Shown here: piece by piece, positions 51,912-63,996 of the stretch | How the letters are laid out: every line of letters begins with the position of its first letter | How positions within the stretch are numbered: position 1 is the stretch's first letter | Source: Armatimonadota bacterium | GTDB lineage: Bacteria > Sysuimicrobiota > Sysuimicrobiia > Sysuimicrobiales > Sysuimicrobiaceae | NCBI GenBank assembly: GCA_025060455.1 | Contig: JANXBY010000019.1 | Location: 1-64,000, forward strand | Direction: 5' to 3' | DNA: 64,000 nt | Translations under genes and position numbers: made by a program | Notes under the pieces: model-generated | What the model saw: only the letters and a program-made list of their open reading frames with translations | What the model was told of the DNA's origin: nothing | The model's database searches: none

Positions 51912-54431
51912 TCAGACGGGCAGCCGCTGGGCCGACGTGAGGATGTCGTGCCACGGGTCTCCCCGCTCCCGCAGGCGCGCCGGCACCGTCCGGGCGTTCC
52001 ACTGGAGCGGGTCAAAACCCCTCCGCAGCTCTTCCCATGTGACCGGGACGCTCACCGTGGCCTGCGGGGTGGGCCGCAGGCTGTAGGCCGCAGCCAGGGT
52101 CTTGCCCCGCACGTTCTGGTTGTAGTCCAGGAACACCTTGCCCACGCGGTCCCGCACGCGCCACGCCACGGTCAGCAGCTCCGGGTGGCGCCGGCTCAGC
52201 CACCCGCACACCGTCTTGGCGAACGCGTGCGTTTCCCGGTAGGTGTACTCCCGGCGCACCGGCACGAACACGTGCAGCCCCGTCTTGCCCGAGGTCTTCA
52301 CGTAAGCCCGCAGCCCCAGCCCCGCCAAAGCCTCCTCCAGCCACAGGGCCGCCTGTCGGGCCGCCTCGAACCCTCGGACGGAAAAGTCCGGATCGCTCTC
52401 CCGACCCCGGCGACGAAGCCCTTCCCCCTCGGGCACCAGGAACGGGTCCAGGTCGAACACGACGAAGTCCGGGTAGTTGAGGACGCTGCGTTCTACCGCC
52501 TGCTCCGACCCCGAGAACTCCGTGGAGGCCTCCACCCCCGGGATGGGCGTGACCCGGGAGAAGGCCGCGTGCACCTCCACGCAGCCCATCTGCACCAGCC
52601 ACAGGAGCGTGGCCTCGTCCTGGCAGACCACCATGGTCACGTCGCGGCGGCCCTGGTCCGACCACACGCGCACCGTGCGCACGAACTGGGGGGCGTCGGA
52701 GGCGTCCTTCTGGAAAAAGTCCGGCCCGTGGATCCCTTCCGGGAACCGGCGGAGGGTGAGGGGGCGGTCCTGGAGGTGGGGCAGGATCCAAGGGGCCACC
52801 GCCCTGTAGTACGCCACCACGTCGCCCTTGGTGAGGCCCGCCTCCGGGAAGTACACCTTGTCCACGTTGCTGAACGCAAAGGGCAGGGCGACCTCCGGTG
52901 CCCACACGTCTTCCGGGGTGCGATCCTCCCGGACCCGGACGAACACCGGAAACCGCAGCTTCCCGTCCGCGGTGCGACCCGCGTGCTCCACCTCCACCAC
53001 CACCTGCGGCCGTACCCACCGCACGGAATTCGGCACATCCTCGGCCTGCGGGAGGGGACTGGCCTCCACCTGAAGCGGCTCCAGCAGCGCCCGCAGGTGC
53101 CGCACCTCCTCGTCCCGGAACCCTCCACCCACCTGCCCCACGTGCACCAGGCGGCCGGAGGGGTCTCGCTGTGCCAGCACCAGCGCCCCGAAGGTGGCCT
53201 GCCGGTGGCCACGCCCGCGGGTGAACCCCACCACCACCGCTTCCTCTGTCTGCCGGGCTTTCACCTTCCGCCACCGGTCGCTGCGGACCCCGGGCAGGTA
53301 AGGGGAGTCCGCGCGCTTGGCCACCACGCCCTCCAACCCGTGCGCGCGGACCGCGGCAAACAGAGCCCTGCCTTCCCCCCGCACGACCTGCCCGCGCAGC
53401 AGTGGCACCTGCACCGGAATCCCCTCCAGTACCTGGCGACGCTCCTCGAAGGGCCTGGACCGCAGGTCGCGCCCGCCCCAGTACAGCACGTCGAACACCA
53501 CGTACCGGACCGGCAGCTCGCGCACCAGCCGATGTACCTCCGAGCTCGTCGTCCGGTGCATCCGCTGCGCCAGCCGGCCGAAGTCGGGGCGCCCCTGCTC
53601 GTCGGGCGCGATCACCTCGCCGTCCAGCACGCACGGGGGAAGGCGCGACAGGGCGTCCGCCACTTCCGGGTAACGGTCCTCCACGCGCCGCAGGGAACGG
53701 CTGAACAGCCGCACCGTGCCTTCGCGAACGAAGGCGAGGGCCCGCAGGCCGTCCCACTTGGGCTCGAAGTACCACCCAGGGTCGTCGAAGGGTTCGGGAG
53801 CGCTGGAAGCCAGCATGGGCGGAAAGGGCTCTGGGAACGGGTCTTCGGCTACCGCGCCGACGGGTGCAGGGTCCGCCCGCCGGATCCCCTCCACGGTCCG
53901 ACCGCTGAGTACCGACCGGGTGCCCGAGGGGTCGTAACCGGGCACCGCGTAGGCGTCCTGCGCTTTGAACAGCAGCCAGTCACGGCCTCCGTGCCGCCGG
54001 GTGCGCACCAGGTGGAACTCGCCCCGGAGCTTGTGGCCGTGGAGGACCAAGGTCATCTTGCCGCGCCGGAACGCCTCCGCGGGGTCGCCCTCGCGGCACT
54101 CGTACGTCCCGCGGTCCCACACCATCACCGTGCCTGCGCCGTAGTTTCCCGGGGGGATAACGCCCTCGAAGTCCGCGTACTCCAAAGGGTGATCCTCCAC
54201 CAGGACCGCGAGCCGTTTTACCGCAGGATCCAACGAGGGCCCCTTCGGCACCGCCCACGACCGCAGCACCCCTTCCATCTCGAGCCGGAAGTCCCAGTGC
54301 ACGGTGCGGGCGTGGTGCTCCTGGACCACGAACAGGCGTCCACTCTGTTCGGCCACGGTACCCCCTTCTGGTTCCGGGGTGCGTTCGAACCGGCGCTTCG
54401 TGCGGTACGCGCGGAGATTGAGGTGCGCCAC
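51912..54431 (-). CDS. ligD: ATP-dependent DNA ligase D (multifunctional NHEJ enzyme)
   Basis: An 839-residue end-joining enzyme with domains in the order phosphoesterase (about 30-165), ligase (about 205-505) and polymerase/primase (about 530-835). The 3'-phosphoesterase has FVVQEHHARTVHWDFRLEM and IPPGNYGAG. The ligase lysine is Lys225 in EPKWDGLR, with DGEVIAPD and EGVVAKR. The primase domain has KVYFPEAGLTKGDVVAYY and the metal motif FDLDP, then SGKTGLHVFVP. The order PE-Lig-Pol matches the Pseudomonas type rather than the mycobacterial Pol-PE-Lig. It starts at GTG 54431; TACACT ends 5 nt before it. Confidence 0.96.
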   Translation of the reverse strand: MAHLNLRAYRTKRRFERTPEPEGGTVAEQSGRLFVVQEHHARTVHWDFRLEMEGVLRSWAVPKGPSLDPAVKRLAVLVEDHPLEYADFEGVIPPGNYGAGTVMVWDRGTYECREGDPAEAFRRGKMTLVLHGHKLRGEFHLVRTRRHGGRDWLLFKAQDAYAVPGYDPSGTRSVLSGRTVEGIRRADPAPVGAVAEDPFPEPFPPMLASSAPEPFDDPGWYFEPKWDGLRALAFVREGTVRLFSRSLRRVEDRYPEVADALSRLPPCVLDGEVIAPDEQGRPDFGRLAQRMHRTTSSEVHRLVRELPVRYVVFDVLYWGGRDLRSRPFEERRQVLEGIPVQVPLLRGQVVRGEGRALFAAVRAHGLEGVVAKRADSPYLPGVRSDRWRKVKARQTEEAVVVGFTRGRGHRQATFGALVLAQRDPSGRLVHVGQVGGGFRDEEVRHLRALLEPLQVEASPLPQAEDVPNSVRWVRPQVVVEVEHAGRTADGKLRFPVFVRVREDRTPEDVWAPEVALPFAFSNVDKVYFPEAGLTKGDVVAYYRAVAPWILPHLQDRPLTLRRFPEGIHGPDFFQKDASDAPQFVRTVRVWSDQGRRDVTMVVCQDEATLLWLVQMGCVEVHAAFSRVTPIPGVEASTEFSGSEQAVERSVLNYPDFVVFDLDPFLVPEGEGLRRRGRESDPDFSVRGFEAARQAALWLEEALAGLGLRAYVKTSGKTGLHVFVPVRREYTYRETHAFAKTVCGWLSRRHPELLTVAWRVRDRVGKVFLDYNQNVRGKTLAAAYSLRPTPQATVSVPVTWEELRRGFDPLQWNARTVPARLRERGDPWHDILTSAQRLPV

Positions 54432-54473: not shown

Positions 54474-55436
54474 TCAGCCGGGGCGCACCGGTTCCACGTC
54501 TGGCGGGTAGCGCAGCGGCGGGAGCTGCGACTCGATCCGTGCCCGGTACGGCTCCAGCCAGGGAGGCAGCACGAGGGAGGAGCCGAGCCGGTCCACCTCC
54601 TCGTCCACTGCGAACCCCGGACCGTCCGTGGCCAGCTCGAACAGCACGCCTCCCGGCTCGCGGAAGTACACGGACTTGAACCAGAACCGATCCACGGGGG
54701 GCGTGGGGTTTCTCCCCGCCCAGCTGACCCGCCGCCTCACCTGCGCCTGGTGTGCGTCGTCCCGCACCCGCCAGGCCAGGTGGTGCACGCCGCCCACGCC
54801 CCACCGTCCGGGTTCCCCCAAGGGGTCCTCCTGCACGTCCAGCCAGCAGCCCGAGCCTCCCGGCCCCGCGGCGAAGCGCACCCAGCTGCCCTCCTCCGCC
54901 ACCCGGCGGAAGCCCAGCACGTCCGTGAGGAACTGCTCCGTGGGTCCCAGAAAAGCCACCCGCACGGTGGCCGCGTGCAGCCCCCGCACCTGCCACGAGG
55001 CCGGAACCGGGCTTTCCTCCCACGGCACGAAGGGCCGGTCCTGGACCTCCACCAGCCGCAGGGGAAGGCCGTCGGGGTCAGCAGCCACGAGCGCGCGCTC
55101 TCCGAACCGCACCTCCTCCCCCCGCAGCGCCACGCCGAACCACCGAAGCCGCTCAGCCCAAAACCCCAGGCTTCCGTGGGGGACCGCCAGGGCCACCTCC
55201 ACCGCCAGTCCCACACCCTGCCGGGCAGGAGGTAGGTCCGGCCACGGGAAAAAGGTCAGGTCGGTCCCGGGGCTACCGTGCCCGTCCGCATAAAACAGGT
55301 GGTACGTGCCCGGGTCATCCTGGTTCACGCTGCGCTTCACCAGCCGAAGACCCAGGACGCCCGCGTAGAAGTCCACGTTGGCCTGCGGGTCCCGGGCGAT
55401 GCAGGTGATGTGGTGAAGCCCTCCGACCGCTTCCAC
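54474..55436 (-). CDS. Ring-cleaving extradiol dioxygenase-like VOC protein (MhqO type)
   Basis: A double-VOC-domain protein of 320 residues. It opens GLHHITCIARDPQANVDFYA and continues GLRLVKRSVNQDDPGTYHLF, DGHGSPGTDLTFFPWPD, then in the second half VGGVHHLAWRV and YFREPGGVLFELATDGPGF; the two His and the Glu are the usual Fe(II) ligands. MhqO/MhqA relatives act on hydroquinone-type compounds; no substrate is proven. GTG 55436 follows GGAGGGAGCG. It lies between DUF72 and ligD in the Ku operon, an uncommon place for this enzyme. Confidence 0.88.
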   Translation of the reverse strand: MEAVGGLHHITCIARDPQANVDFYAGVLGLRLVKRSVNQDDPGTYHLFYADGHGSPGTDLTFFPWPDLPPARQGVGLAVEVALAVPHGSLGFWAERLRWFGVALRGEEVRFGERALVAADPDGLPLRLVEVQDRPFVPWEESPVPASWQVRGLHAATVRVAFLGPTEQFLTDVLGFRRVAEEGSWVRFAAGPGGSGCWLDVQEDPLGEPGRWGVGGVHHLAWRVRDDAHQAQVRRRVSWAGRNPTPPVDRFWFKSVYFREPGGVLFELATDGPGFAVDEEVDRLGSSLVLPPWLEPYRARIESQLPPLRYPPDVEPVRPG

Positions 55437-55449
55437 CGCTCCCTCCCGT

Positions 55450-56199
55450 TCAGCAGGCCGGAGACGCTTCCCGCGCACACAGCTGCATCAGGGCACGCGC
55501 GAACTTGACCGCCTCCGGCCCCGTGTCGTGGGTGAAGTAACAGAACACCTGCGAGACCGGAGCCTCCCGCAGTCTCTGAGCCCACGCCAGCAACTCGTCG
55601 CGTCCGTATCGCAGGCGGTGCAGCCTCAGGTACCCGAAGGGAGCTGTCCACACCACGGGGTCGCAGCCCTCCTCGTCCTCCGCGGCGCACAGGGCCACCC
55701 GGTACCGCCGCAGCCGCTCATAGGTGTCCTCCTGGAACCACGAGGGGTGGCGGAACTCCAACGCCACCCGCGGGAAGGGCGGCAGGCTCGCCAGGAAGTC
55801 CTCCAGTAGCTCCGGGTCCCTCCGCAGGGACGGCGGGCACTGGAACAGCACCACCGCCAGGTGGCTCCCCAGCGCCTCCAGGCGTTCGGCGGTCCACCGC
55901 AGCTCGGAGTCCACCCGGTGCAGCCGCTTGAGGTGCGTGATGCGCCGGTGGGCCTTGACCGCGAACTGGAAGCCCGCGGGGGTCTGTTCCGCCCACGCCC
56001 GCAGGGTGGCTTCCGGGGGCATCCGGTAGAAGGTGGCGTTCACCTCCACCGTGGGCAACTGGGCGGCGTAGTACTGCAGGAACCTGTCCTCGGGTAGGTC
56101 CTGGGGGTAAAACCGCCCCCGCCACTCCGGGAAGGCAAACCCGGAAGTTCCCGCCAGCACCTGTGGCCGTGGGTCCACGTCTCTGGCCGCGCGGCTCAC
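55450..56199 (-). CDS. DUF72 (YecE-like) family protein
   Basis: A 249-residue predicted TIM-barrel protein of unknown function. Family marks are LAGTSGFAFPEWRGRFYP, VEVNATFYRMPPEATLRAWA, GFQFAVKAHRRITH, VVLFQCPPSLRRD and VALEFRHPSWF, ending with FTHDTGPEAVKFAR-type residues. GTG 56199 overlaps the Ku stop (GTGA), so it is the second gene of the NHEJ operon. A second DUF72 gene lies at 62520-63236 next to an endonuclease V homologue. The repeated neighbourhood hints at a nucleic-acid role; this is inference. Confidence 0.9.
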   Translation of the reverse strand: MSRAARDVDPRPQVLAGTSGFAFPEWRGRFYPQDLPEDRFLQYYAAQLPTVEVNATFYRMPPEATLRAWAEQTPAGFQFAVKAHRRITHLKRLHRVDSELRWTAERLEALGSHLAVVLFQCPPSLRRDPELLEDFLASLPPFPRVALEFRHPSWFQEDTYERLRRYRVALCAAEDEEGCDPVVWTAPFGYLRLHRLRYGRDELLAWAQRLREAPVSQVFCYFTHDTGPEAVKFARALMQLCAREASPAC

Positions 56200-57035
56200 T
56201 TGTGGCGTTCCCGCATGGCGGCCACCCGCTTGGGCGGCGGGGAGCCCTCCACCCGCCGGGCGCGCTGCTGCTTGGCCATCTCCAGGCTGCGGCGCAGCGC
56301 CTCCATGAGGTCCACCACCTTTTCCTCCGCGGGCGGCGCCGCCTGTGGGGGCGGGGCACCCTCCGCCTTCGCCCGGATCACCCGTAACAGGGCCTCCCGG
56401 TACTCGTCCCGGTACTCCCCTGGGTGGAACTCCATGGTCATCCCTTCCACCAGCTGCACCGCCATCTTGCGTTCGTTGGGGTGCACCTTGACCTCCAAGG
56501 GGAACTCCGGGAGGTCTGAAACCGCCCGGATCTCGTCCGGGTAGTACAGCACCTCCATGACCAAGGTGTCCCCGTACGGGCGCAAGGCCACCAGGTGTTC
56601 CTTCTCCCGCAACGCCACCTTGCCTACACCCACTCGCCCGGAGGACGCCAGGGCCTCCTGCAGGAGCTTGAACGCCTTCGCGCCACCCACGTCGGGCGCC
56701 AGGTAGTACGCCCGCTCGTAGTACAGGGGGTCGATGTCCTGCAGCTGCACGAATCCGAACAGGTCCACGGTGCCCTTCGTGGGCAGGGGCACGGACTGCA
56801 GGTCCTCGTCGGTGACCGGGACGAACCGTCCCTTCTCGTACTCGTACCCGCGCACCACCTCGTCCCACTCCACGTCCCGCCCGCAGCGGGGGCAGCGCCG
56901 CACCTGCTTGATGGGCGTCAGACAGGCCGCGTGCAGCTGCCGGAACCGAACGTCCTTGGCCTCCTGGGCCACGTACACCCGCACGGGGATCGTGACCAGG
57001 CCGAAGGCAATGTGCCCCTTCCAGATCGGACGCAT
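56196..57035 (-). CDS. ku: Bacterial Ku, DNA end-binding protein
   Basis: A 279-residue homodimeric ring protein that binds double-strand ends and recruits LigD. It begins MRPIWKGHIAFGLVTIPVRV, the family opening, and has CPRCGRDVEWDEVVRGYEYE, KGTVDLFGFV, AYYLAPD, LREKEHLVALRPYG, and HPNERKMAVQLVEGM. The C-terminal tail is basic (QQRARRVEG, KRVAAMRERHK), as used for DNA and LigD contacts. ATG 57035 is preferred because GGGGAG lies 6 nt upstream; GTG 57056 would add seven residues. Order: ku, DUF72, VOC, ligD. Confidence 0.96.
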   Translation of the reverse strand: MRPIWKGHIAFGLVTIPVRVYVAQEAKDVRFRQLHAACLTPIKQVRRCPRCGRDVEWDEVVRGYEYEKGRFVPVTDEDLQSVPLPTKGTVDLFGFVQLQDIDPLYYERAYYLAPDVGGAKAFKLLQEALASSGRVGVGKVALREKEHLVALRPYGDTLVMEVLYYPDEIRAVSDLPEFPLEVKVHPNERKMAVQLVEGMTMEFHPGEYRDEYREALLRVIRAKAEGAPPPQAAPPAEEKVVDLMEALRRSLEMAKQQRARRVEGSPPPKRVAAMRERHK

Positions 57036-57068
57036 GCGCAGCTCCCCGGCAGGCACCTACCCGCACGT

Positions 57069-58013
57069 CTATGGTACGTCCTGGCGTCCAGCCCGTCCGT
57101 ACTCCCGGAACCACGCCACCGTGCGGGCGATGCCCTCCTCGAGGGGCACGCGGGGCCGCCACCCGAGCACCTGTTCGGCCCGGGTGCAGTCCAGGGCGAT
57201 CCTTCGCACGTCACCCGGACGCGGGGGCCCGTAGCGGGGTTCCCCCTCGTACCCTGTGGCCTGACGCAGCAGGTCGAAGATCCGACGGGTGGAGGTCTCC
57301 ACCCCGGTGCCCACATTAAACACTCCCGCCGCGTCCGCCTCCAGGGCAAGCCGGTTGGCCCGTGCCACGTCCTCCACGTACACGTAGTCCCGCGTGTGGA
57401 GTCCGTCCCCGAAGATGACGGGCTGTCGGCCGTGCAGCATGGCCACGCAGAAGATGGCCACCACCCCCGCCTCACCGTACGGGTCCTGCCGCGGGCCGTA
57501 GACGTTGCCGTAGCGCAGGCTCACCCACCGGAGCCCGTGCAGGCGGCCGTACACGGCGAGGTGGTGCTCCGCGCACAGCTTGTGCACCCCGTACGGGCTC
57601 AAAGGACGCGCCGGGTGGTTCTCGGAAACCGGGACCACCTCCGGTTCGCCGTAGATGGCGCCCCCGGTGCTGGCGAACAACACCCGGCCCACCCCGTAGC
57701 GCACGCAGCACTCCAGCAACTGAAGGGTCCCCAGTACGTTCACCCGGGCGTCGTGCAGGGGGTCCCGGACGGAGACTGCCACCGAGGCTTGCGCGGCGTG
57801 GTGGCACACCACCTCCGGCCGCTCCTGCTGGAACACCTCCTCCAGCTGCGGGCTCGCCACGTCCACCCGGTAGAGGGGCACCCCCGGAGGCACGAACTGC
57901 GCACGCCCGCCCTCCAGGGTATCCACCACCGCCACCCGGTGGCCTGCCTGGCGCAACGCCGCCACCACATGCGACCCGATGAAACCCGCTCCGCCGGTCA
58001 CCAGGACCCGCAC
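57069..58013 (-). CDS. NAD-dependent sugar-nucleotide epimerase (GalE-like)
   Basis: A 314-residue extended short-chain dehydrogenase. It starts VLVTGGAGFIGSHVVAALRQ with the NAD GxxGxxG, has LFASTGGAIYGE, the catalytic YGVHK (Tyr-x3-Lys), SLRYGNVYGPRQDPYGEAGV, and FGDGLHTRDYVYVEDVA. These match UDP-glucose 4-epimerase and related enzymes; GlcNAc epimerase or a dTDP-sugar step are alternatives. GTG 58013 has GGGAGG 6 nt upstream. It lies 33 bp upstream of ku in the same direction, so the NHEJ operon may start here. Confidence 0.9.
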   Translation of the reverse strand: MRVLVTGGAGFIGSHVVAALRQAGHRVAVVDTLEGGRAQFVPPGVPLYRVDVASPQLEEVFQQERPEVVCHHAAQASVAVSVRDPLHDARVNVLGTLQLLECCVRYGVGRVLFASTGGAIYGEPEVVPVSENHPARPLSPYGVHKLCAEHHLAVYGRLHGLRWVSLRYGNVYGPRQDPYGEAGVVAIFCVAMLHGRQPVIFGDGLHTRDYVYVEDVARANRLALEADAAGVFNVGTGVETSTRRIFDLLRQATGYEGEPRYGPPRPGDVRRIALDCTRAEQVLGWRPRVPLEEGIARTVAWFREYGRAGRQDVP

Positions 58014-58103
58014 CGACGCCTCCCACGAGGACTCCCGCGTCCTCCGCCAGAATACTCTTTCAACCTTCGCGAAACCCGCGCGGCCTCCTGGGCAGCTGGC
58101 GGG

Positions 58104-58697
58104 GTGTCCGTGGACCGGGACGAGCACGCGTACGCGCTCTTCCGGCAGGCGCTGGTGGATGGCGATCCGGACGCCTGGCGGGAGCTGTACGCCCGCTACG
58201 AGAACCTGGTGGCCGCCTGGGTCCGGCGTCACCCCGGGTTCCTCCAGACCGGCGAGACGGTGGCCTACTTCGTCAACCGGGCTTTTGACCGCCTGTACAC
58301 CGCCGTGGGCCGGGAGAAGTTCGCACGGTTTCCCAACGCGGGCAGCCTCCTCCGCTACCTGAAGATGTGCGTGCACGCCGCCATCCTGGACGCCGTTCGG
58401 CAGCAAGAGCGACGTGCCTTCGAAGAGCCGTCCCGCGTCAGCGAAGCCGCGGACCCGGAGGCGGAAGCGGTGGCCAACCTGGAGCGGGAGGAGCTGTGGG
58501 CGGTGGTCCAGTCCGCGGTGCGGGACGAGCGGGAGCGGATCCTGGTGTACGAGTGCTTCGTGTGTGGCGCCACACCTCAGCAGCTGCACCGCCGCCACCC
58601 GCAGCTGTTCCCTTCCACCGAAGCGGTGTACCTGGCCAAAAGAAGCCTCCTCCAGCGGCTGCGCCGCCACCCGCGCATCCAGGCGCTCCATGGATAG
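58104..58697 (+). CDS. Sigma-70 family (ECF-like) RNA polymerase sigma factor
   Basis: A 197-residue sigma factor with region 2 (ALVDGDPDAWRELYARYENLVAAWV, then FVNRAFDRLY, RFPNAGSLLRYLKMCVHAAI with DAVR) and region 4 (RERILVYECFVCGATPQQLHRRHP, the HTH). Between them is a linker rich in Glu. It resembles the short sigma-70-like factors of chloroflexi and related lineages. No anti-sigma gene is adjacent. GTG 58104 and GTG 58110 are both possible. It is divergent from the epimerase. Confidence 0.85.
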   Translation: MSVDRDEHAYALFRQALVDGDPDAWRELYARYENLVAAWVRRHPGFLQTGETVAYFVNRAFDRLYTAVGREKFARFPNAGSLLRYLKMCVHAAILDAVRQQERRAFEEPSRVSEAADPEAEAVANLEREELWAVVQSAVRDERERILVYECFVCGATPQQLHRRHPQLFPSTEAVYLAKRSLLQRLRRHPRIQALHG

Positions 58698-58748
58698 AGG
58701 GGTAGGCCCCAGACCTGAAGCCGGGTTGTGAACCCCTTTGCGGCTGCC

Positions 58749-58783
58749 AAAAAGCCAGCGGCGGCCGCGAGGGCCGCCGCTGG
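58749..58783 (-). terminator. Rho-independent terminator
   Basis: A perfect 12-bp stem (CCAGCGGCGGCC / GGCCGCCGCTGG, 58755-58783) with loop GCGAG. On the minus strand it is followed by TTTTT (58753 to 58749), the classical form. It lies between two converging genes and ends the 125-residue coiled-coil gene; as a hairpin it may also slow the sigma-factor transcript, though without a U tract there. Confidence 0.85.
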
Positions 58784-58833
58784 TGGGGGGTGGGGCATCA
58801 CCCTCGGCCGGGGGAGCCGAGGGGTGGGGTGGC

Positions 58834-59211
58834 CTAGGTTTGGGCAACTGCGGGCTGCACGGCCGCCGGACGCGCCGGCGCCTCAGCCCGAGCCCGTGCG
58901 CGCTGCGCCCGCATCTGCTGGATATGTTCGTACAGCGCCACCAGCTTCAGCAGCCACGCGTTCTCCTGTAGCGCCCGTCGGTGGGCGTCCAGACCGTCCC
59001 GCGCCAACCGCTTGGCACCGTCCAGGACCGCCCGGTGCTCACCGCGGTACGCGGCGTGGGCGGAGGCGTACTGTGCCAACTCGTGGCGAACCCGGGCCCG
59101 GCGGCGGCGCTCGCCGTCCAGCACCCTCCGGTAGTCCCGTCGGTGGTCCTCCCGAGCCGCCACCATCTCCCTCCGGACCTCCCACAACGCTTCGCGGTGC
59201 ACGCGCAGCAT
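58834..59211 (-). CDS. Small helical, coiled-coil-like charged protein, function unknown
   Basis: A 125-residue protein made almost wholly of Arg, Glu, Ala, His and Leu in heptad-like spacing (LRVHREALWEVRREMVAARE, YRRVLDGERRRRARVRHELA), so it is probably a long helix or coiled coil. There is no signal peptide or membrane helix; the tail is Ala/Pro-rich. ATG 59211 has GGAGG 5 nt upstream, better than the TTG at 59280. A terminator follows it. The neighbouring sigma gene converges with it, so co-regulation is not implied. Confidence 0.7.
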   Translation of the reverse strand: MLRVHREALWEVRREMVAAREDHRRDYRRVLDGERRRRARVRHELAQYASAHAAYRGEHRAVLDGAKRLARDGLDAHRRALQENAWLLKLVALYEHIQQMRAQRARARAEAPARPAAVQPAVAQT

Positions 59212-59406
59212 CGCTTCCTCCAACAGCGGAGCCGGCTGCCCGACTCCCTCATCGGGTGCCGGCCCTGTTCCGCTCCACAAACGCCGACGCGGTCCCGGCG
59301 GCCTCCGTGTCCGCCGAGCACCGCGTCCGCTGTCATCGTACCATGGGTTGCCTGCACGTCAACCTTCTTGGGCTAGAACCTTTCGATGGAATGTCCGGGG
59401 TGCGTT

Positions 59407-60678
59407 CTATGGGTCTGGAAGGGCGCCGGCGGCGCACACCGCCCCGTACACGGACGCGGAGGGACGCGGCCGGCGGCGCTGCGACGCGGGGTCCACGGCG
59501 AACAGGCCGAACTTCATGCGCCAGCCCTCCGTCCACTCGAAGTTGTCCACCAACGACCAGTGGTAGTACCCGAGCACCGGAATACCCTCCTCCACCGCCC
59601 GGTGCACGCAGGCCAGGTGGTCCAGCAGGAACCGGGGCCGCCAGCGGTCCTCCGCGTCCGGGAGCCCGTTTTCCGTCACGTACACGGGCCTTCGGTAGCG
59701 CCGCCACGCCTCCCGCAACACCCGCAGCAACCCTTCGGGGTACAGCTCCCCGTAGCCGAAGTCGCTGGTGGGCGCTCCCGGAGTCGGCCGGTGCAACCCG
59801 AAGCCCAGGTGGGGTGCCCCCGGGCTGAACCGCACGCGGTCGCGCGTGTAGTAGTTGACGCCCACGAAGTCCAGGGTGGCCGCGCACTCCGGGATCCTCC
59901 CCAGCACCCACCGACCGCGCGCCCGGCCTCGCTGCAGGACGTCCAACCACGCCCAGTTGAACCACTCGCTGTGCCAGCGGGCTACCCACCGGTCCAGGGG
60001 GTTTTGGGGCCGGAGCGGGTCCATGGGACGCAGGTGGTGGGCGATCCCCACCCGCGCGTGGGGCTGCAACTCATGAACCGCGTGGTAGGCGGCCGCGTGG
60101 GCCCGCAGCAGGTGCCGGGCCGCCACCACGGCCCTGCGCAGGCTCCGCACGGCCGGCGGGTGTCGGCCCTGCAGGTAGCCCAGCACCACCACCAGGTTGG
60201 GCTCGTTGACTGTCACCCACACGTCCACCAGGTCTCCGAACCACTCCGCGCACCGCCGCGCGTGGGTGCGGAACCACTCCACCGCGTCGGGGTTCTCCCA
60301 CCCTCCCGCCTGAGCCACCCACAGGGGCAACGTGAAGTGGTGCAGCGTCACCATCGGTTCGAGGCCACGGTCCCTCAGTCCCAGCAGCATCTGGCGGTAG
60401 CGGCGCACCGCGGCCTCGTCCACCCTTCCCAGCTCGGGTTCCAGCCGGCTCCACTCCACCGACATGCGGTGGGCGGTGAGGTGGAGCGCCACCATGCGGT
60501 CGAAGTCCGCCTCGGCATGCCGCCACCAGTCGCACGCCCGGCCGGACCGGTGGCCGCCGTAAATGCGGCCCGGGTGTTGCTCGAAGGCCCACCAGTCGTT
60601 GTGGCGGTTGCAGCCCTCCACCTGGTGGGCGCTGGTGGCCGTGCCCCACCGGAAGCCCCTCGGGAAGCGCCGCGCCAC
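59407..60678 (-). CDS. Beta-glucosidase, glycoside hydrolase family 1
   Basis: A 423-residue TIM-barrel retaining glycosidase. It opens FPRGFRWGTATSAHQVEG, has RMSVEWSRLEP, HHFTLPLWV, the acid/base Glu in TVNEPN, FVGVNYYTRD, the nucleophile Glu in YVTENGLPD and the C-terminal YYHWSLVDNFEWTEGW. All are GH1 hallmarks. The enzyme likely splits beta-glucosides or beta-galactosides; no signal peptide is visible, so it is cytoplasmic. It lies 22 bp downstream of the PQQ dehydrogenase gene on the same strand. Confidence 0.95.
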   Translation of the reverse strand: MARRFPRGFRWGTATSAHQVEGCNRHNDWWAFEQHPGRIYGGHRSGRACDWWRHAEADFDRMVALHLTAHRMSVEWSRLEPELGRVDEAAVRRYRQMLLGLRDRGLEPMVTLHHFTLPLWVAQAGGWENPDAVEWFRTHARRCAEWFGDLVDVWVTVNEPNLVVVLGYLQGRHPPAVRSLRRAVVAARHLLRAHAAAYHAVHELQPHARVGIAHHLRPMDPLRPQNPLDRWVARWHSEWFNWAWLDVLQRGRARGRWVLGRIPECAATLDFVGVNYYTRDRVRFSPGAPHLGFGLHRPTPGAPTSDFGYGELYPEGLLRVLREAWRRYRRPVYVTENGLPDAEDRWRPRFLLDHLACVHRAVEEGIPVLGYYHWSLVDNFEWTEGWRMKFGLFAVDPASQRRRPRPSASVYGAVCAAGALPDP

Positions 60679-60699
60679 GGGGTGCGCCTTTGGCCGCGT

Positions 60700-61770
60700 T
60701 CACTGGGGCAGGATCAGCCGCAGGATGCGGTCGTCCGCGTCCGCGGGCCGCCCTCGGCCATCGCGGTTGCTGGTCAGGACGTACACCGCACCGTCGGGCC
60801 CCTCTACCACGTCCCGGAGCCGCCCGAACCCCGACAGCACCACCTCCTGCCGCTCCACCCGGCTGCCGTCGTGGCTGAGGACGAAGGCGCGCAGGTGTGC
60901 TCCCCGCAGGTTGGCCACCAGCAGCCGGCCGCGCCAGCTCCCCCGCCGCACGAACTCCGCACCGGAAGGGGCCCAGGTGTCGTCCCCGCTGCACGCGAGC
61001 GGATCCACGAACTCCGGCCGGCTGCCCTCGCTGCACACCACCTCCGGCCACCCGTAGTTGGCCCCGGGCCGGATGAGGTTGACTTCGTCGTGCGCAAACC
61101 CCCGCTCCCCCGAAGGACCGTGCTCGGTGCTGTAGAGGCGGCGCGTCTGCGGGTGCCATGCCAACCCCTGCACGTTCCGGTGCCCCAGGGAGTAAACGGG
61201 GGAGCCAGGGAACGGGTTGTCCGCCGGGACGCCTCCGTCGGGGGTGACGCGCAGGATCTTGCCCGCCAGGGAGCGCGGGTCCTGGGCCAGGGACGGCTGG
61301 CGGGCGTCGCCCGTGCCCACGTACAGCATGCCGTCCGGTCCGAACCGGATGCGGCCACCGTCGTGCACGAAGGCGCCGGGGATGTCGTCCACCACCACGC
61401 GGTCCCGCACCAGCCTGCCGCCCTGCTCCCGGAAACGCTCCACGCGGTTGCGCAGCCCGTCCTGCTGGTACGTGTAGTACAGGTACACGTACGGGGGGTT
61501 GGGGAACCGGGGGTGCAGAGCGATCCCCAGCAGGCCCCCTTCGCCCACGTGCGCCACCGGCAGGATGGCCGCGGGCTGCGGGTCCACTCGGCCGTCCCGC
61601 ACCACCCGCACGCGGCCCGGCCGCTCCGTCACGAAGGCGCGGCCGTCCGGAGCAAACGCCAGCGACCAAGGGATCTCCAGCCCCCGCACCCACTCCACCA
61701 CCTGCGGCCGTGCGGGGGATGTCGCCCCCAGGGTCAGGAACAGGCCCACAGCCGCCGCCAGCCAGCGCAT
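60700..61770 (-). CDS. PQQ-dependent soluble sugar dehydrogenase (aldose dehydrogenase family)
   Basis: A secreted beta-propeller enzyme of 356 residues. The N-terminus is a signal peptide (MRWLAAAVGLFLTLGA, cleavage near TSPARP). The family marks follow: PWSLAFAPDGRAFVTERPGR, GEGGLLGIALHPRFP, FGPDGMLYVGTGDA, GHRNVQGLAWHP, EHGPSGERGFAHDEVN and GANYGWP. They match the Glucose/sorbosone dehydrogenase (YliI/Asd) family that oxidises sugars with PQQ. GGAGGTG precedes ATG 61770. Together with the downstream GH1 gene it suggests a sugar-use pair. Confidence 0.92.
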   Translation of the reverse strand: MRWLAAAVGLFLTLGATSPARPQVVEWVRGLEIPWSLAFAPDGRAFVTERPGRVRVVRDGRVDPQPAAILPVAHVGEGGLLGIALHPRFPNPPYVYLYYTYQQDGLRNRVERFREQGGRLVRDRVVVDDIPGAFVHDGGRIRFGPDGMLYVGTGDARQPSLAQDPRSLAGKILRVTPDGGVPADNPFPGSPVYSLGHRNVQGLAWHPQTRRLYSTEHGPSGERGFAHDEVNLIRPGANYGWPEVVCSEGSRPEFVDPLACSGDDTWAPSGAEFVRRGSWRGRLLVANLRGAHLRAFVLSHDGSRVERQEVVLSGFGRLRDVVEGPDGAVYVLTSNRDGRGRPADADDRILRLILPQ

Positions 61771-61878
61771 CCGCCACCTCCACCGGGTATTCTGCAGACC
61801 GCGTTTCGACGCTGCCGGAGGTTTTCCCCAGGAGGAGTTCCGCCCCTGGGGCCCCGAAGGCCTCCAAGGGGTGCTGCC

Positions 61879-62514
61879 ATGGACCTATTCCACGCCCGGC
61901 TAATGCCGTACCTGGAGTCCCTGGTGCCCCCGCGGCACCCGGTGATGGAGGAGATGGAGGCCCGCGCCCGCGCCACCGGCTTCCCCATCGTGGGCCCCGC
62001 GGTGGGCCAGCTGTTCTACGTGCTCACCCGGCTGGCTGGGGCGCACCGGGTGTTCGAAATGGGCTCCGGGTTTGGCTACTCCACCGCGTGGTTCGCCCTG
62101 GCCGTGCGGGACAACGGGGGCGGAGAGGTGCACCACGTGGTGTGGGACGCTCAGCTTTCCCGGGACGCGCGCGGTTACCTGGACCGCATGGGGCTCCTGC
62201 CTGTGGTGCGGTTCCACGTGGCGGAGGCGGTGGCGCAGCTGGCTTCCATGGACGCCACCTTCGACGTGGTGTTCAACGATATCGAGAAGCCCGCCTACCC
62301 CGCGGCCCTGCCCGTGATCAAGGCCCGGCTCCGCCCTGGCGGGTTGCTGTTGGCGGACAACGTGCTGTGGTACGGACGGGTGCTGGACCGCCGGGCGCGG
62401 GACGAGGCCACGGAGGCCATCCGCGCCTTCACCCGCGCGGTGTCCGAGGACCCCGAGTTCGCCGCCACTGTGGTCCCCCTGCGCGACGGCGTGCTGGTGG
62501 CGTACCGGCGCTGA
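61879..62514 (+). CDS. O-methyltransferase (CCoAOMT-like)
   Basis: A 211-residue class I SAM methyltransferase of the caffeoyl-CoA/catechol O-methyltransferase group. It has VFEMGSGFGYSTAWFALAVR as SAM-binding motif I, VHHVVWDAQL, and VVFNDIEK, ADNVLWYGRVLD, which carry the metal ligands (Asp/Asn) in this family. The usual DxD after motif I region is changed (FNDIEK), so metal binding should be checked. ATG 61879 is the first good start. It is divergent from the PQQ dehydrogenase and convergent with DUF72. Confidence 0.88.
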   Translation: MDLFHARLMPYLESLVPPRHPVMEEMEARARATGFPIVGPAVGQLFYVLTRLAGAHRVFEMGSGFGYSTAWFALAVRDNGGGEVHHVVWDAQLSRDARGYLDRMGLLPVVRFHVAEAVAQLASMDATFDVVFNDIEKPAYPAALPVIKARLRPGGLLLADNVLWYGRVLDRRARDEATEAIRAFTRAVSEDPEFAATVVPLRDGVLVAYRR

Positions 62515-62519
62515 GGGAC

Positions 62520-63236
62520 TCACCCCTCCCGGCGGAGGAGGTCGCGGAACCGCAGGGCGTCCTCCCACATGCTCACGTTGTTGAACAGGACGTATGCGGG
62601 TGCCGTGCAACGCCCTCGCAGCTGCCGCAGGTCCTCCTCCGTGTACCGGTAGCGGTATCCGCCGCGCCCGTGGAGCCGGTAGTAGCGCACCCGCCCGTAC
62701 ACGCTGGGAGCGGCCAGCGGGTCGGTACAGTGGATCAGGTCCAGGTCCTGGCACAGCTGGCGCACCAACCCCTCGGGCCAGGGCCCCCGGGGCTCCCACG
62801 CGAGCTGCAGCCCGTCCCGGGGCGCGCGGCGGAAGAAACGCCGGAGGTTTTCCACGTGGGCCGGCGTGGGCGTGAAGCTGGCCGGGCACTGGAACACCAC
62901 CACCGCGGCCCGCAGCGCCCGTGCCACCTCCAGGGTTCGGGCCCACGCCTCGTGGACTTCCTCGGTGGGCGCGAAGAACCCGTAGCGGTCCAGCTGGGAC
63001 GCGGGGACCGGCCGGCTGAGACGCCGGTACGTGGGGCTGGTGGGCGGGTGGGTGACCAGCTGCCACGCCTTCAGGGTGAAGACGAACCCGTCCGGCACCC
63101 GGCGCCGCCAGCGCTCCGCCGTCCTCACCTGCGGAGGTTGGTAGAAGGTCTGCTGCACCTCCACCACGGGCAGCTCCCGCGCGTACTCCTCCAGTTTCCG
63201 CGCAAACCCGCAGCAGCCCACCCAGATGTGCTCCAC
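62520..63236 (-). CDS. DUF72 (YecE-like) family protein, second copy
   Basis: A 238-residue predicted TIM barrel. It opens VGCCGFARKLEEYARELPVV and has VEVQQTFYQPPQVRTAERWR, GFVFTLKAWQLVTH, VVVFQCPASFTP and YYRLHGRGGYRYRYTEEDL, ending LFNNVSMWEDA. It is shorter at the start than the copy at 55450. GTG 63236 is 73 bp from the divergent endonuclease V homologue. The active site, if any, is unknown. Confidence 0.88.
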   Translation of the reverse strand: MEHIWVGCCGFARKLEEYARELPVVEVQQTFYQPPQVRTAERWRRRVPDGFVFTLKAWQLVTHPPTSPTYRRLSRPVPASQLDRYGFFAPTEEVHEAWARTLEVARALRAAVVVFQCPASFTPTPAHVENLRRFFRRAPRDGLQLAWEPRGPWPEGLVRQLCQDLDLIHCTDPLAAPSVYGRVRYYRLHGRGGYRYRYTEEDLRQLRGRCTAPAYVLFNNVSMWEDALRFRDLLRREG

Positions 63237-63309: not shown

Positions 63310-63996
63310 GTGGCCGCCGGTGTGTGGCCCACCACCCGCGACGAGCTCCTCCGGGAGCAGGAGTGCCTGGGCAAGATGCGGCCCCTGCCGTGGAAGCCGG
63401 AGGGGACGTGGACGGCGGGCGCCTGCTTCGCCTGCTACCCCCTGGGGCGAGAGGGAGCCGGCGGGACGGGTGAGACGTGCTGGGCCGCCGCGGTGCTGTG
63501 GACTCCTGAAATGTCGCACCCAGTGGTGGTCGTCCAACGTGTGGAGGCTCCGTACGAGCCAGGGCTGCTGGCCCTCCGGGAGGGCCCCGTGCTGGAGGCC
63601 GCGGTCCGTCGGCTCCCCCGCCTTCCAGACGTGCTCCTGGTGGACGCCACCGGGCGGGACCACCCCCGGCGCGCCGGCCTTGCCCTCCACCTGGGCGCGG
63701 TGCTGGGAGTGCCCACCGTGGGCGTCACCGACCGCCCCCTGGTGGCGCGGGGGCCGGTGCCGGAAGACCGGCGCGGTGCCCGGAGTGCCCTGGTGCTGGA
63801 GGGCGAAGTGGTGGGCTACTGGGTCCGCACCCGGCCGCGGGTTCGCCCCGTGTGCGTGCACGCGGCATGGCGCACCGACCCGGAGACGGCTGTGGAGGTA
63901 GTGCTACAGTTGGCCGCCCGCTACCGCACCCCGGAGCCTGTCCGGCGGGCCCGGGAGGCTGCTCGGGCAGCCCGGGCCGGGCGCCTCGCCTACTGA
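63310..63996 (+). CDS. Endonuclease V family protein with altered catalytic residues
   Basis: A 228-residue homologue of Nfi, which nicks DNA or RNA next to deaminated bases (inosine). The family region PYEPGLLALREGPVLEAA gives the catalytic Glu91, and LLVDATGRDHPRRAGLALH gives Asp112 and the PRR helix; VPTVGVTD and YWVRTRPRVRPVCVHAAW follow. The first catalytic Asp (AGxD) is Cys39 here (AGACFACY) and the late His is Trp187 (AAWRTD). Two of four metal/active-site residues are therefore missing. It may be inactive, bind deaminated nucleic acid only, or use other ligands. GTG 63310 or GTG 63322 is the start. Confidence 0.85.
   Translation: MAAGVWPTTRDELLREQECLGKMRPLPWKPEGTWTAGACFACYPLGREGAGGTGETCWAAAVLWTPEMSHPVVVVQRVEAPYEPGLLALREGPVLEAAVRRLPRLPDVLLVDATGRDHPRRAGLALHLGAVLGVPTVGVTDRPLVARGPVPEDRRGARSALVLEGEVVGYWVRTRPRVRPVCVHAAWRTDPETAVEVVLQLAARYRTPEPVRRAREAARAARAGRLAY

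Follow-up and report, generated by a model that had tools for sequence, protein, structure and literature searches.

What a gene of the DUF72 family is doing in the operon for DNA end joining is the question raised by a stretch of DNA from an Armatimonadota bacterium (GenBank assembly GCA_025060455.1, contig JANXBY010000019.1, positions 1 to 64,000 of the forward strand; this whole stretch of 64,000 nucleotides is referred to as the window). To our knowledge, DUF72, presumably the family also named COG1801 or YecE, is widespread and structurally characterized, with no function assigned so far. Bacterial non-homologous end joining (NHEJ) is mostly presented as the work of two proteins, Ku and LigD; in the window an additional gene, DUF72-A, is found in or beside the operon that encodes them. 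A first-pass annotation of this DNA had set this gene and a second one, DUF72-B, each beside a DNA-processing gene, and had proposed from the repeated placement that DUF72 proteins take part in repair. The answer reached here is more restricted: DUF72-A belongs to a subfamily, called FxH after a motif in its final strand, whose functional link to NHEJ we consider very likely, and which is probably an undescribed helper of Ku/LigD repair. What the sequences themselves show is that its genes lie with ku or ligD in more than one phylum and in varied gene orders, that it accompanies Ku in the window's own phylum, and that it has a histidine proper to the clade and a TIM barrel with invariant or nearly invariant residues.

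DUF72-A in the NHEJ operon and its co-occurrence with Ku

The presence of Ku and DUF72 was compared in 41 of the 43 genomes of the window's phylum in our collection, the f7 genomes G041 and G042 being left out of the DUF72 search (genomes, loci and families are designated by G, L and f numbers). The named Ku records closest to this group come from Armatimonadota/Armatimonadetes metagenome-assembled genomes, and the group presumably corresponds to CSP1-3, or Sysuimicrobiota. Ku was found in 32 of the 41, and a DUF72 of the same type as DUF72-A (A type) in 31 of these 32 and in none of the nine genomes lacking Ku (Fisher test, 3e-8, the genome counts here and below being uncorrected for relatedness). 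The Ku-negative genomes are spread over three families and five genera, their DUF72 genes, where present, are of the B, C or D types, and the incomplete ones among them include G002 (72%), G035 (78%), G032 (85%) and G008 (89%). The A type lies next to ku in 17 of the 31 genomes and next to ligD, as scored at the loci, in 11 others (28 in all); these eleven are ten f7 genomes, whose ku is on a different contig, plus G017. As for the remaining A types, that of G026, truncated where its contig ends, is some 4 kb away from ku, that of G020 is unlinked, and that of G011 is on a contig of only 3.8 kb.

In the window itself an epimerase-family gene, ku, DUF72-A, a glyoxalase-family gene and ligD follow one another on the minus strand in one co-directional run (Table 1). 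ku and ligD exceed the cut-offs of their curated equivalog profiles and lie close together in the same direction, as in bacterial NHEJ operons; the 3'-phosphoesterase domain of LigD scores 217.6 bits against a cut-off of 144, and its domains are also recognized by Pfam. Both DUF72 genes were located where the first-pass annotation had placed them (cut-off for PF01904, 25.3 bits), and DUF72-A does belong to the operon, with ku directly upstream. The overlap with ku that had also been described is possible, according to the start codon used: GTG 56199 gives a 4-nt overlap (GTGA) with the ku stop codon, and the alternative in-frame GTG codons at 56178 and 56160 would leave about 17 and 35 nt, respectively, between the two genes. 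In the homologues inspected, the start codon mostly precedes the GTSG motif by 9-42 nt. Genes were called with our own codon-usage script.

Table 1. Position and identification of the window's features considered in this work
Feature	Position	Strand	Identification
DUF72-A, FxH-type DUF72	55450..56199	-	249 aa from GTG 56199; PF01904 213.2 bits; A-clade member
His224 codon, end of predicted strand 8, clade-marking residue	55528..55530	-	alignment
ku, bacterial NHEJ end-binding protein	56196..57056	-	TIGR02772 300.6 bits, cut-off 150; PF02735 167.9 bits
ligD, 3'-phosphoesterase, ligase and polymerase domains	51912..54431	-	TIGR02776 459.9 bits, cut-off 373.2
Glyoxalase/dioxygenase-superfamily gene, between DUF72-A and ligD	54474..55436	-	PF00903
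NAD-dependent epimerase/dehydratase gene, co-directional, upstream of ku	57069..58013	-	PF01370
DUF72-B, different DUF72 type	62520..63236	-	PF01904 134.8 bits from profile position 9
Endonuclease V-like gene	63310..63996	+	PF04493 143.4 bits; open frame from 63226

At L183, L197 and L198, loci of f1, DUF72-A is likewise followed by a homologue of the glyoxalase-family gene (cluster c13), and the epimerase/dehydratase gene is probably outside the system. Members of another gene family, cluster c4 (L179:5173-5817, L182, L199 and others), are oriented divergently to ku in nine genomes of f2 and three of f5; the one member scanned had no Pfam match.

The FxH clade and its neighborhoods in other phyla

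A tree of 139 DUF72 sequences (a quick one, built with LG+G4, with support from the Shimodaira-Hasegawa-like approximate likelihood ratio test, SH-aLRT, only, and with flagged long branches) placed the A type within a clade of 76 sequences with an SH-aLRT value of 99. This clade holds 40 of the 44 sampled sequences that are near ku or ligD; the sequences had been picked for their likeness to the A type, and the proportions linked inside and outside the clade (40/76 vs 4/63) do not represent a family-wide rate. The final-strand motif of the clade is F-x-H, in place of the F-N-N of other types: its histidine, His224 in DUF72-A, is found in all 75 clade sequences with a residue at that position, and asparagine in 54 of 55 sequences of other types. 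DUF72-A shows both the clade position and His224, and DUF72-B falls in another clade. Glu52, Lys82 and Arg192 are invariant in the 76 sequences and Gln120 (75), Arg150 (75) and Glu148 (72) nearly so, which suggests catalysis; within the pocket, position 58 varies (46 Tyr, 26 Arg, 4 Asn) and so does position 194 (31 His, 45 Arg). In the predicted structure of DUF72-A, Glu52, Lys82, Gln120, Glu148, Glu174, Arg192 and His224 are at the ends of strands 2 to 8, in that order, which in the model corresponds to the usual active-site face of TIM barrels. With the PF01904 proteins of known structure, TM1631 (1vpq) and EF0366 (1vpy, 1ztv), DUF72-A has in common the profile, the fold and the core residues Glu52, Lys82, Gln120, Glu148, Arg150 and Arg192; it differs from the other DUF72 types sampled in having His224 for asparagine and in its location in an NHEJ operon.

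Proximity to ku was also observed outside the phylum, in pairs read by eye. In Chloroflexota, 69 of the 251 genomes drawn had Ku, and nine of these 69 had, among the matches listed, a DUF72 gene at 4 kb or less from ku. Random placement would give 0.58 (P about 5e-9, assuming independence of both places and genomes), an expectation calculated with rounded sizes and a 4-kb window between midpoints, while the observed pairs were measured edge to edge. Three arrangements are represented: DUF72 upstream of ku and co-directional, followed by ligD in G089, G175, G255 and G263 and with one gene between DUF72 and ku in G251; DUF72 divergent from ku (G257 and G155); and ku-ligD-DUF72 (G078 and G119). 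G054 resembles the first arrangement and was excluded from the count, being cut by contig ends. As a control, HhH-GPD and Ku gave no pair within 4 kb among the matches listed, a minority of all matches that makes this control weak. In five Chloroflexota loci (L222, L225, L230, L232, L233) a Na/Pi-cotransporter and PhoU-kind gene, identified by scanning one representative, directly precedes an FxH-clade DUF72, a partner with no evident tie to repair.

Thirteen plasmid loci were opened, and DUF72 was beside ku in those of Microvirga lotononidis, M. ossetica, Shinella sp. H4-D48 and Gemmatirosa and not in the other nine; the choice was not random (L265 was chosen for its side-by-side ku and DUF72 matches, L287 via Ku), and these figures give no rate. 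In Gemmatirosa (Gemmatimonadota) both genes adjoin and are co-directional, and in Shinella sp. H4-D48 (plasmid p1, L291) genes for Ku, LigD and a second Ku are divergent from DUF72, which is followed by a gene annotated as DNA-3-methyladenine glycosylase. In Actinomycetota, 152 of the 296 genomes drawn had Ku, and at least 13 of them had DUF72 within 4 kb of ku, where a mean-value estimate predicts about one. Among the best 30 loci of this phylum, three had DUF72 adjoining ku in convergent orientation, and in six (L300, L302, L307, L311, L315 and L316) DUF72 came directly after an endonuclease III-like gene, the ends of both overlapping in five of the six according to our own gene calls. The endonuclease III-like gene scanned as a representative exceeds the cut-off for nth (TIGR01083, 235 vs 211.7 bits); one neighbor of each kind (endonuclease III-like, GlnD-like and hydrolase) was identified by profile in these loci, and the others by clustering.

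Fold, DUF72-B and the remaining DUF72 types

The TIM-barrel core that had been predicted for both DUF72 proteins was borne out by AF2 models (mean predicted local distance difference test, pLDDT, of 94.7 for DUF72-A and 91.8 for DUF72-B) and by their best solved structures, which in both cases were the DUF72 entries 1vpq, 1vpy and 1ztv (Z 24.1-25.7 and 20.7-21.6, respectively). The best superpositions were those of DUF72-A on 1vpq (Z 25.7, 230 aligned residues, root mean square deviation 2.3) and DUF72-B on 1vpy (Z 21.6, 215 aligned, 2.7). Sugar 3-epimerases, endonuclease IV (EndoIV) and UV damage endonuclease (UVDE) were the nearest folds beyond DUF72, and they were tied (Z 12-15 for EndoIV and UVDE). 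The EndoIV/UVDE superfamily has the barrel in common with DUF72; neither window protein matches it as a sequence family: a scan of both with NCBIfam at E<=1e-5 returned only PRK10302 and not nfo (TIGR00587), and one with Pfam at E<=1e-3 returned DUF72 alone, with no UvdE profile match. Neither EndoIV nor UVDE was among the best 50 Foldseek matches of DUF72-A, and those of DUF72-B include UVDE 3tc3 (E 7.5e-5). A cluster of invariant histidines like that of the three-metal His/Asp/Glu site of EndoIV did not appear in the sequence alignments, inspected without residue-level superposition. Identification as an endonuclease IV from the fold was considered and found not to be decisive, given the tie of EndoIV and UVDE with sugar epimerases (VIA rows), and the idea that DUF72-A substitutes for a missing EndoIV was discarded, as EndoIV exceeds its cut-off in 37 of the 41 phylum genomes, including that of the window, which has a separate nfo gene (201.7 bits, cut-off 129.65).

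DUF72-B is of a different type, with the segment after strand 1 missing from its N-terminal region, the F-N-N motif and a place in a separate clade of 14 sequences. It is indeed divergent from an endonuclease V (EndoV) homologue, as first annotated. The 73-bp gap between both genes is also found, with the same gene caller, in the congener loci L197 (G003) and L198 (G001), which favors GTG 63310 as the start of the EndoV-like gene. Its product is below both NCBIfam cut-offs for EndoV (133.6 vs 230 and 109 vs 300 bits), a test that is weak by itself since the canonical-looking EndoV of G009 (L064) misses both as well (229.4 and 240.4 bits). The catalytic residues of Thermotoga maritima EndoV we take to be Asp43, Glu89, Asp110 and Lys139. 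In 17 aligned EndoV-like proteins the equivalent of Asp43 is Cys (16) or Val (1), and none has Lys at the equivalent of Lys139, so that, compared with Endonuclease V (PF04493), to which they are homologous, two catalytic positions are replaced in all 17. In the window protein, read against L064, the first position is Cys and the last Asp, the Glu and the middle Asp being kept; in the whole set, 16 of 17 proteins carry a C-F-[AV]-C motif where the first catalytic Asp would be, and the middle position is Asp in eight and Asn in nine. This paralogue, present in 19 of the 41 phylum genomes (63310-63996 on the plus strand of the window; L065-L083), may be a pseudo-nuclease or have a new activity. 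It forms a divergent pair with DUF72-B in six of the 11 genomes having both (G000, G001, G002, G003, G005 and G020), is 3.7 kb from it in G014, and is apart from it in the other four. The two are a conserved pair, which does not amount to evidence of repair. The annotated vicinity of each DUF72 gene to a DNA-processing gene is maintained for DUF72-A, through ku, and is doubtful for DUF72-B, whose partner has lost two catalytic residues, and the two cannot be taken as equal evidence, being also of different types.

The genome of the window has four DUF72 genes, not two, the others being beside a gene for tyrosyl-tRNA synthetase and a gene for a pyridoxal phosphate (PLP) enzyme; the D-type gene is 14 nt behind the former (L348:1896-3919). 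The C type, used as a control, had no ku or ligD in any of 17 neighborhoods. Its location near dnaX/recR and endonuclease III was considered as a link to repair and rejected, this order being seen only in genus g1 (three of 17 loci).

A possible end-cleaning step in bacterial NHEJ

We favor, with some confidence, the view that the FxH subfamily of DUF72-A is an accessory protein of bacterial NHEJ. DUF72-A would act on DNA ends held by Ku and clean blocked or damaged termini, such as abasic remnants or the 3'-unsaturated aldehydes left by endonuclease III, after which LigD would fill and seal. Its chemistry can be guessed at: it could be metal-dependent, at Glu148, Glu174 and His224, or lyase-like, at Lys82. 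Bacterial Ku has abasic-site lyase activity (PMC4245934), and damaged-end processing is therefore part of the pathway, which is why end cleaning is preferred. It would also explain the six Actinomycetota DUF72 copies directly after an endonuclease III-like gene and the position of the Shinella DUF72 between the NHEJ island and the 3-methyladenine glycosylase gene. That DUF72-A is an end-cleaning enzyme is a tentative proposal, and the complete picture of a third dedicated NHEJ factor, an end cleaner of EndoIV/UVDE fold with an asparagine-to-histidine change in the strand-8 site and coupled elsewhere to endonuclease III, is offered with slightly more reserve.

Several observations weigh against such a role. 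Metabolic enzymes share the TIM-barrel fold with DUF72-A: D-tagatose/D-allulose 3-epimerases reach the same Z as EndoIV and UVDE, and pyruvate kinases come close behind (Z 12.1-12.6). The frequency of EndoIV in the phylum leaves no obvious gap for DUF72-A, and G009, the sole exception among the 32 genomes with Ku, does without an A-type DUF72. In the clade, 36 of the 76 sequences had neither ku nor ligD close by in the DNA inspected around them, in many cases only 1.5 kb per side; conversely, four linked sequences, three alphaproteobacterial ones and that of G155, are outside the clade, which suggests a separate recruitment, and the alphaproteobacterial/Deinococcus group has Asn at the position of His224 in the seven sequences with a residue there. 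In six of the 13 Actinomycetota cases near ku the gene adjoining DUF72 is GlnD-like, so that much of the signal in that phylum may correspond to one inherited block, and the commonest direct neighbors in its best 30 loci are alpha/beta hydrolase (16) and GlnD-like (9) genes. Eighty Ku loci were also drawn by similarity from named genomes (30 of them mapped to genomes). After setting aside five from the phylum (L085-L088 and L122), none of the remaining 75, mostly from Bacillota by title, had DUF72 within flanks of up to 10 kb, shorter where contigs ended. A DUF72 gene was present somewhere in 20 of the 28 searched genomes of such loci. NHEJ thus works without DUF72, and a general link between DUF72 and Ku is ruled out for Ku loci drawn in this way.

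Some of these facts would suit a metabolic or sanitation TIM barrel, of the epimerase or isomerase kind and with sugars or nucleotides as substrates, that deals with cofactors or small products of damage and has no more than co-regulation in common with NHEJ. The tie with the sugar epimerases, the glyoxalase-family gene preceding ligD in the window and the hydrolase and GlnD-like neighbors in Actinomycetota go in this direction, as does the putative active site of TM1631, which is described by Konc et al. (2013; PMC3828134) as holding sulfate and no metal. Nevertheless, it is Ku and LigD that reappear as partners from one phylum to another, and the glyoxalase-family gene is not seen beside DUF72-A in the f2, f5 and f7 loci, and we regard this possibility as unlikely. 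Less likely again would be a non-enzymatic NHEJ factor that bridges, recruits or regulates Ku or LigD. The operon position agrees with it, and so does the variability of pocket positions 58 and 194, but not the conservation of Glu52, Lys82 and Arg192 and, almost to the same extent, of Gln120, Arg150 and Glu148.

The remaining alternatives concern the breadth of the association and its origin. All the counts are inflated by relatedness, the order of ku, the GlnD-like gene and DUF72 in Actinomycetota resembles one conserved block, and in one genus the C type is near dnaX/recR through lineage synteny alone; inherited synteny with no functional link could thus account for proximity to ku. This is improbable in view of the diversity of phyla and orders (ku-DUF72-ligD, DUF72-ligD without ku, DUF72-ku-ligD, DUF72 divergent from ku, and ku-ligD-DUF72), the joint absence of the A type and Ku in nine genomes, and the result with the C-type control. 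At the other extreme, DUF72 proteins could act generally in nucleic-acid repair, as the first-pass annotation had proposed, with both window genes included. TM1631 has been predicted to be an EndoIV-like endonuclease of DNA lesions (PMC3828134), DUF72 genes are enriched near polB2 and their fold is close to that of UVDE according to a 2025 paper (PMC11791011), NHEJ-linked sequences of another DUF72 type exist in Alphaproteobacteria, and DUF72-B and the EndoV-like gene are paired in six of 11 genomes. Yet the partners of the B, C and D types change or are unrelated within their own phylum, and the EndoV-like partner has lost catalytic residues, so that we see a family-wide repair function as a doubtful explanation. 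The neighborhood statistics that had been advised at the outset give a non-random location near ku and ligD for the A type and a weak signal for DUF72-B, and a part in repair is probable for the former without extending to the family, as the C type and the 75 Ku loci indicate.

A repair role for DUF72 is already a printed prediction, and in the open-licence PMC literature the link with NHEJ was not found: DUF72 did not turn up together with LigD, 'end joining' or 'endonuclease III'. The treatment of neighborhoods in PMC7719229, as far as the excerpts available to us go, concerns the distance between ku and ligD, and its text contains no term that starts with 'DUF'. By accompanying Ku, lying in its operon and bearing a single diagnostic residue, the subfamily provides a concrete partner, a substrate class and mutants with which the prediction of 2013 (PMC3828134) becomes testable. 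For the bacteria that carry it, the FxH DUF72 may bring end processing as a further step into a minimal repair pathway.

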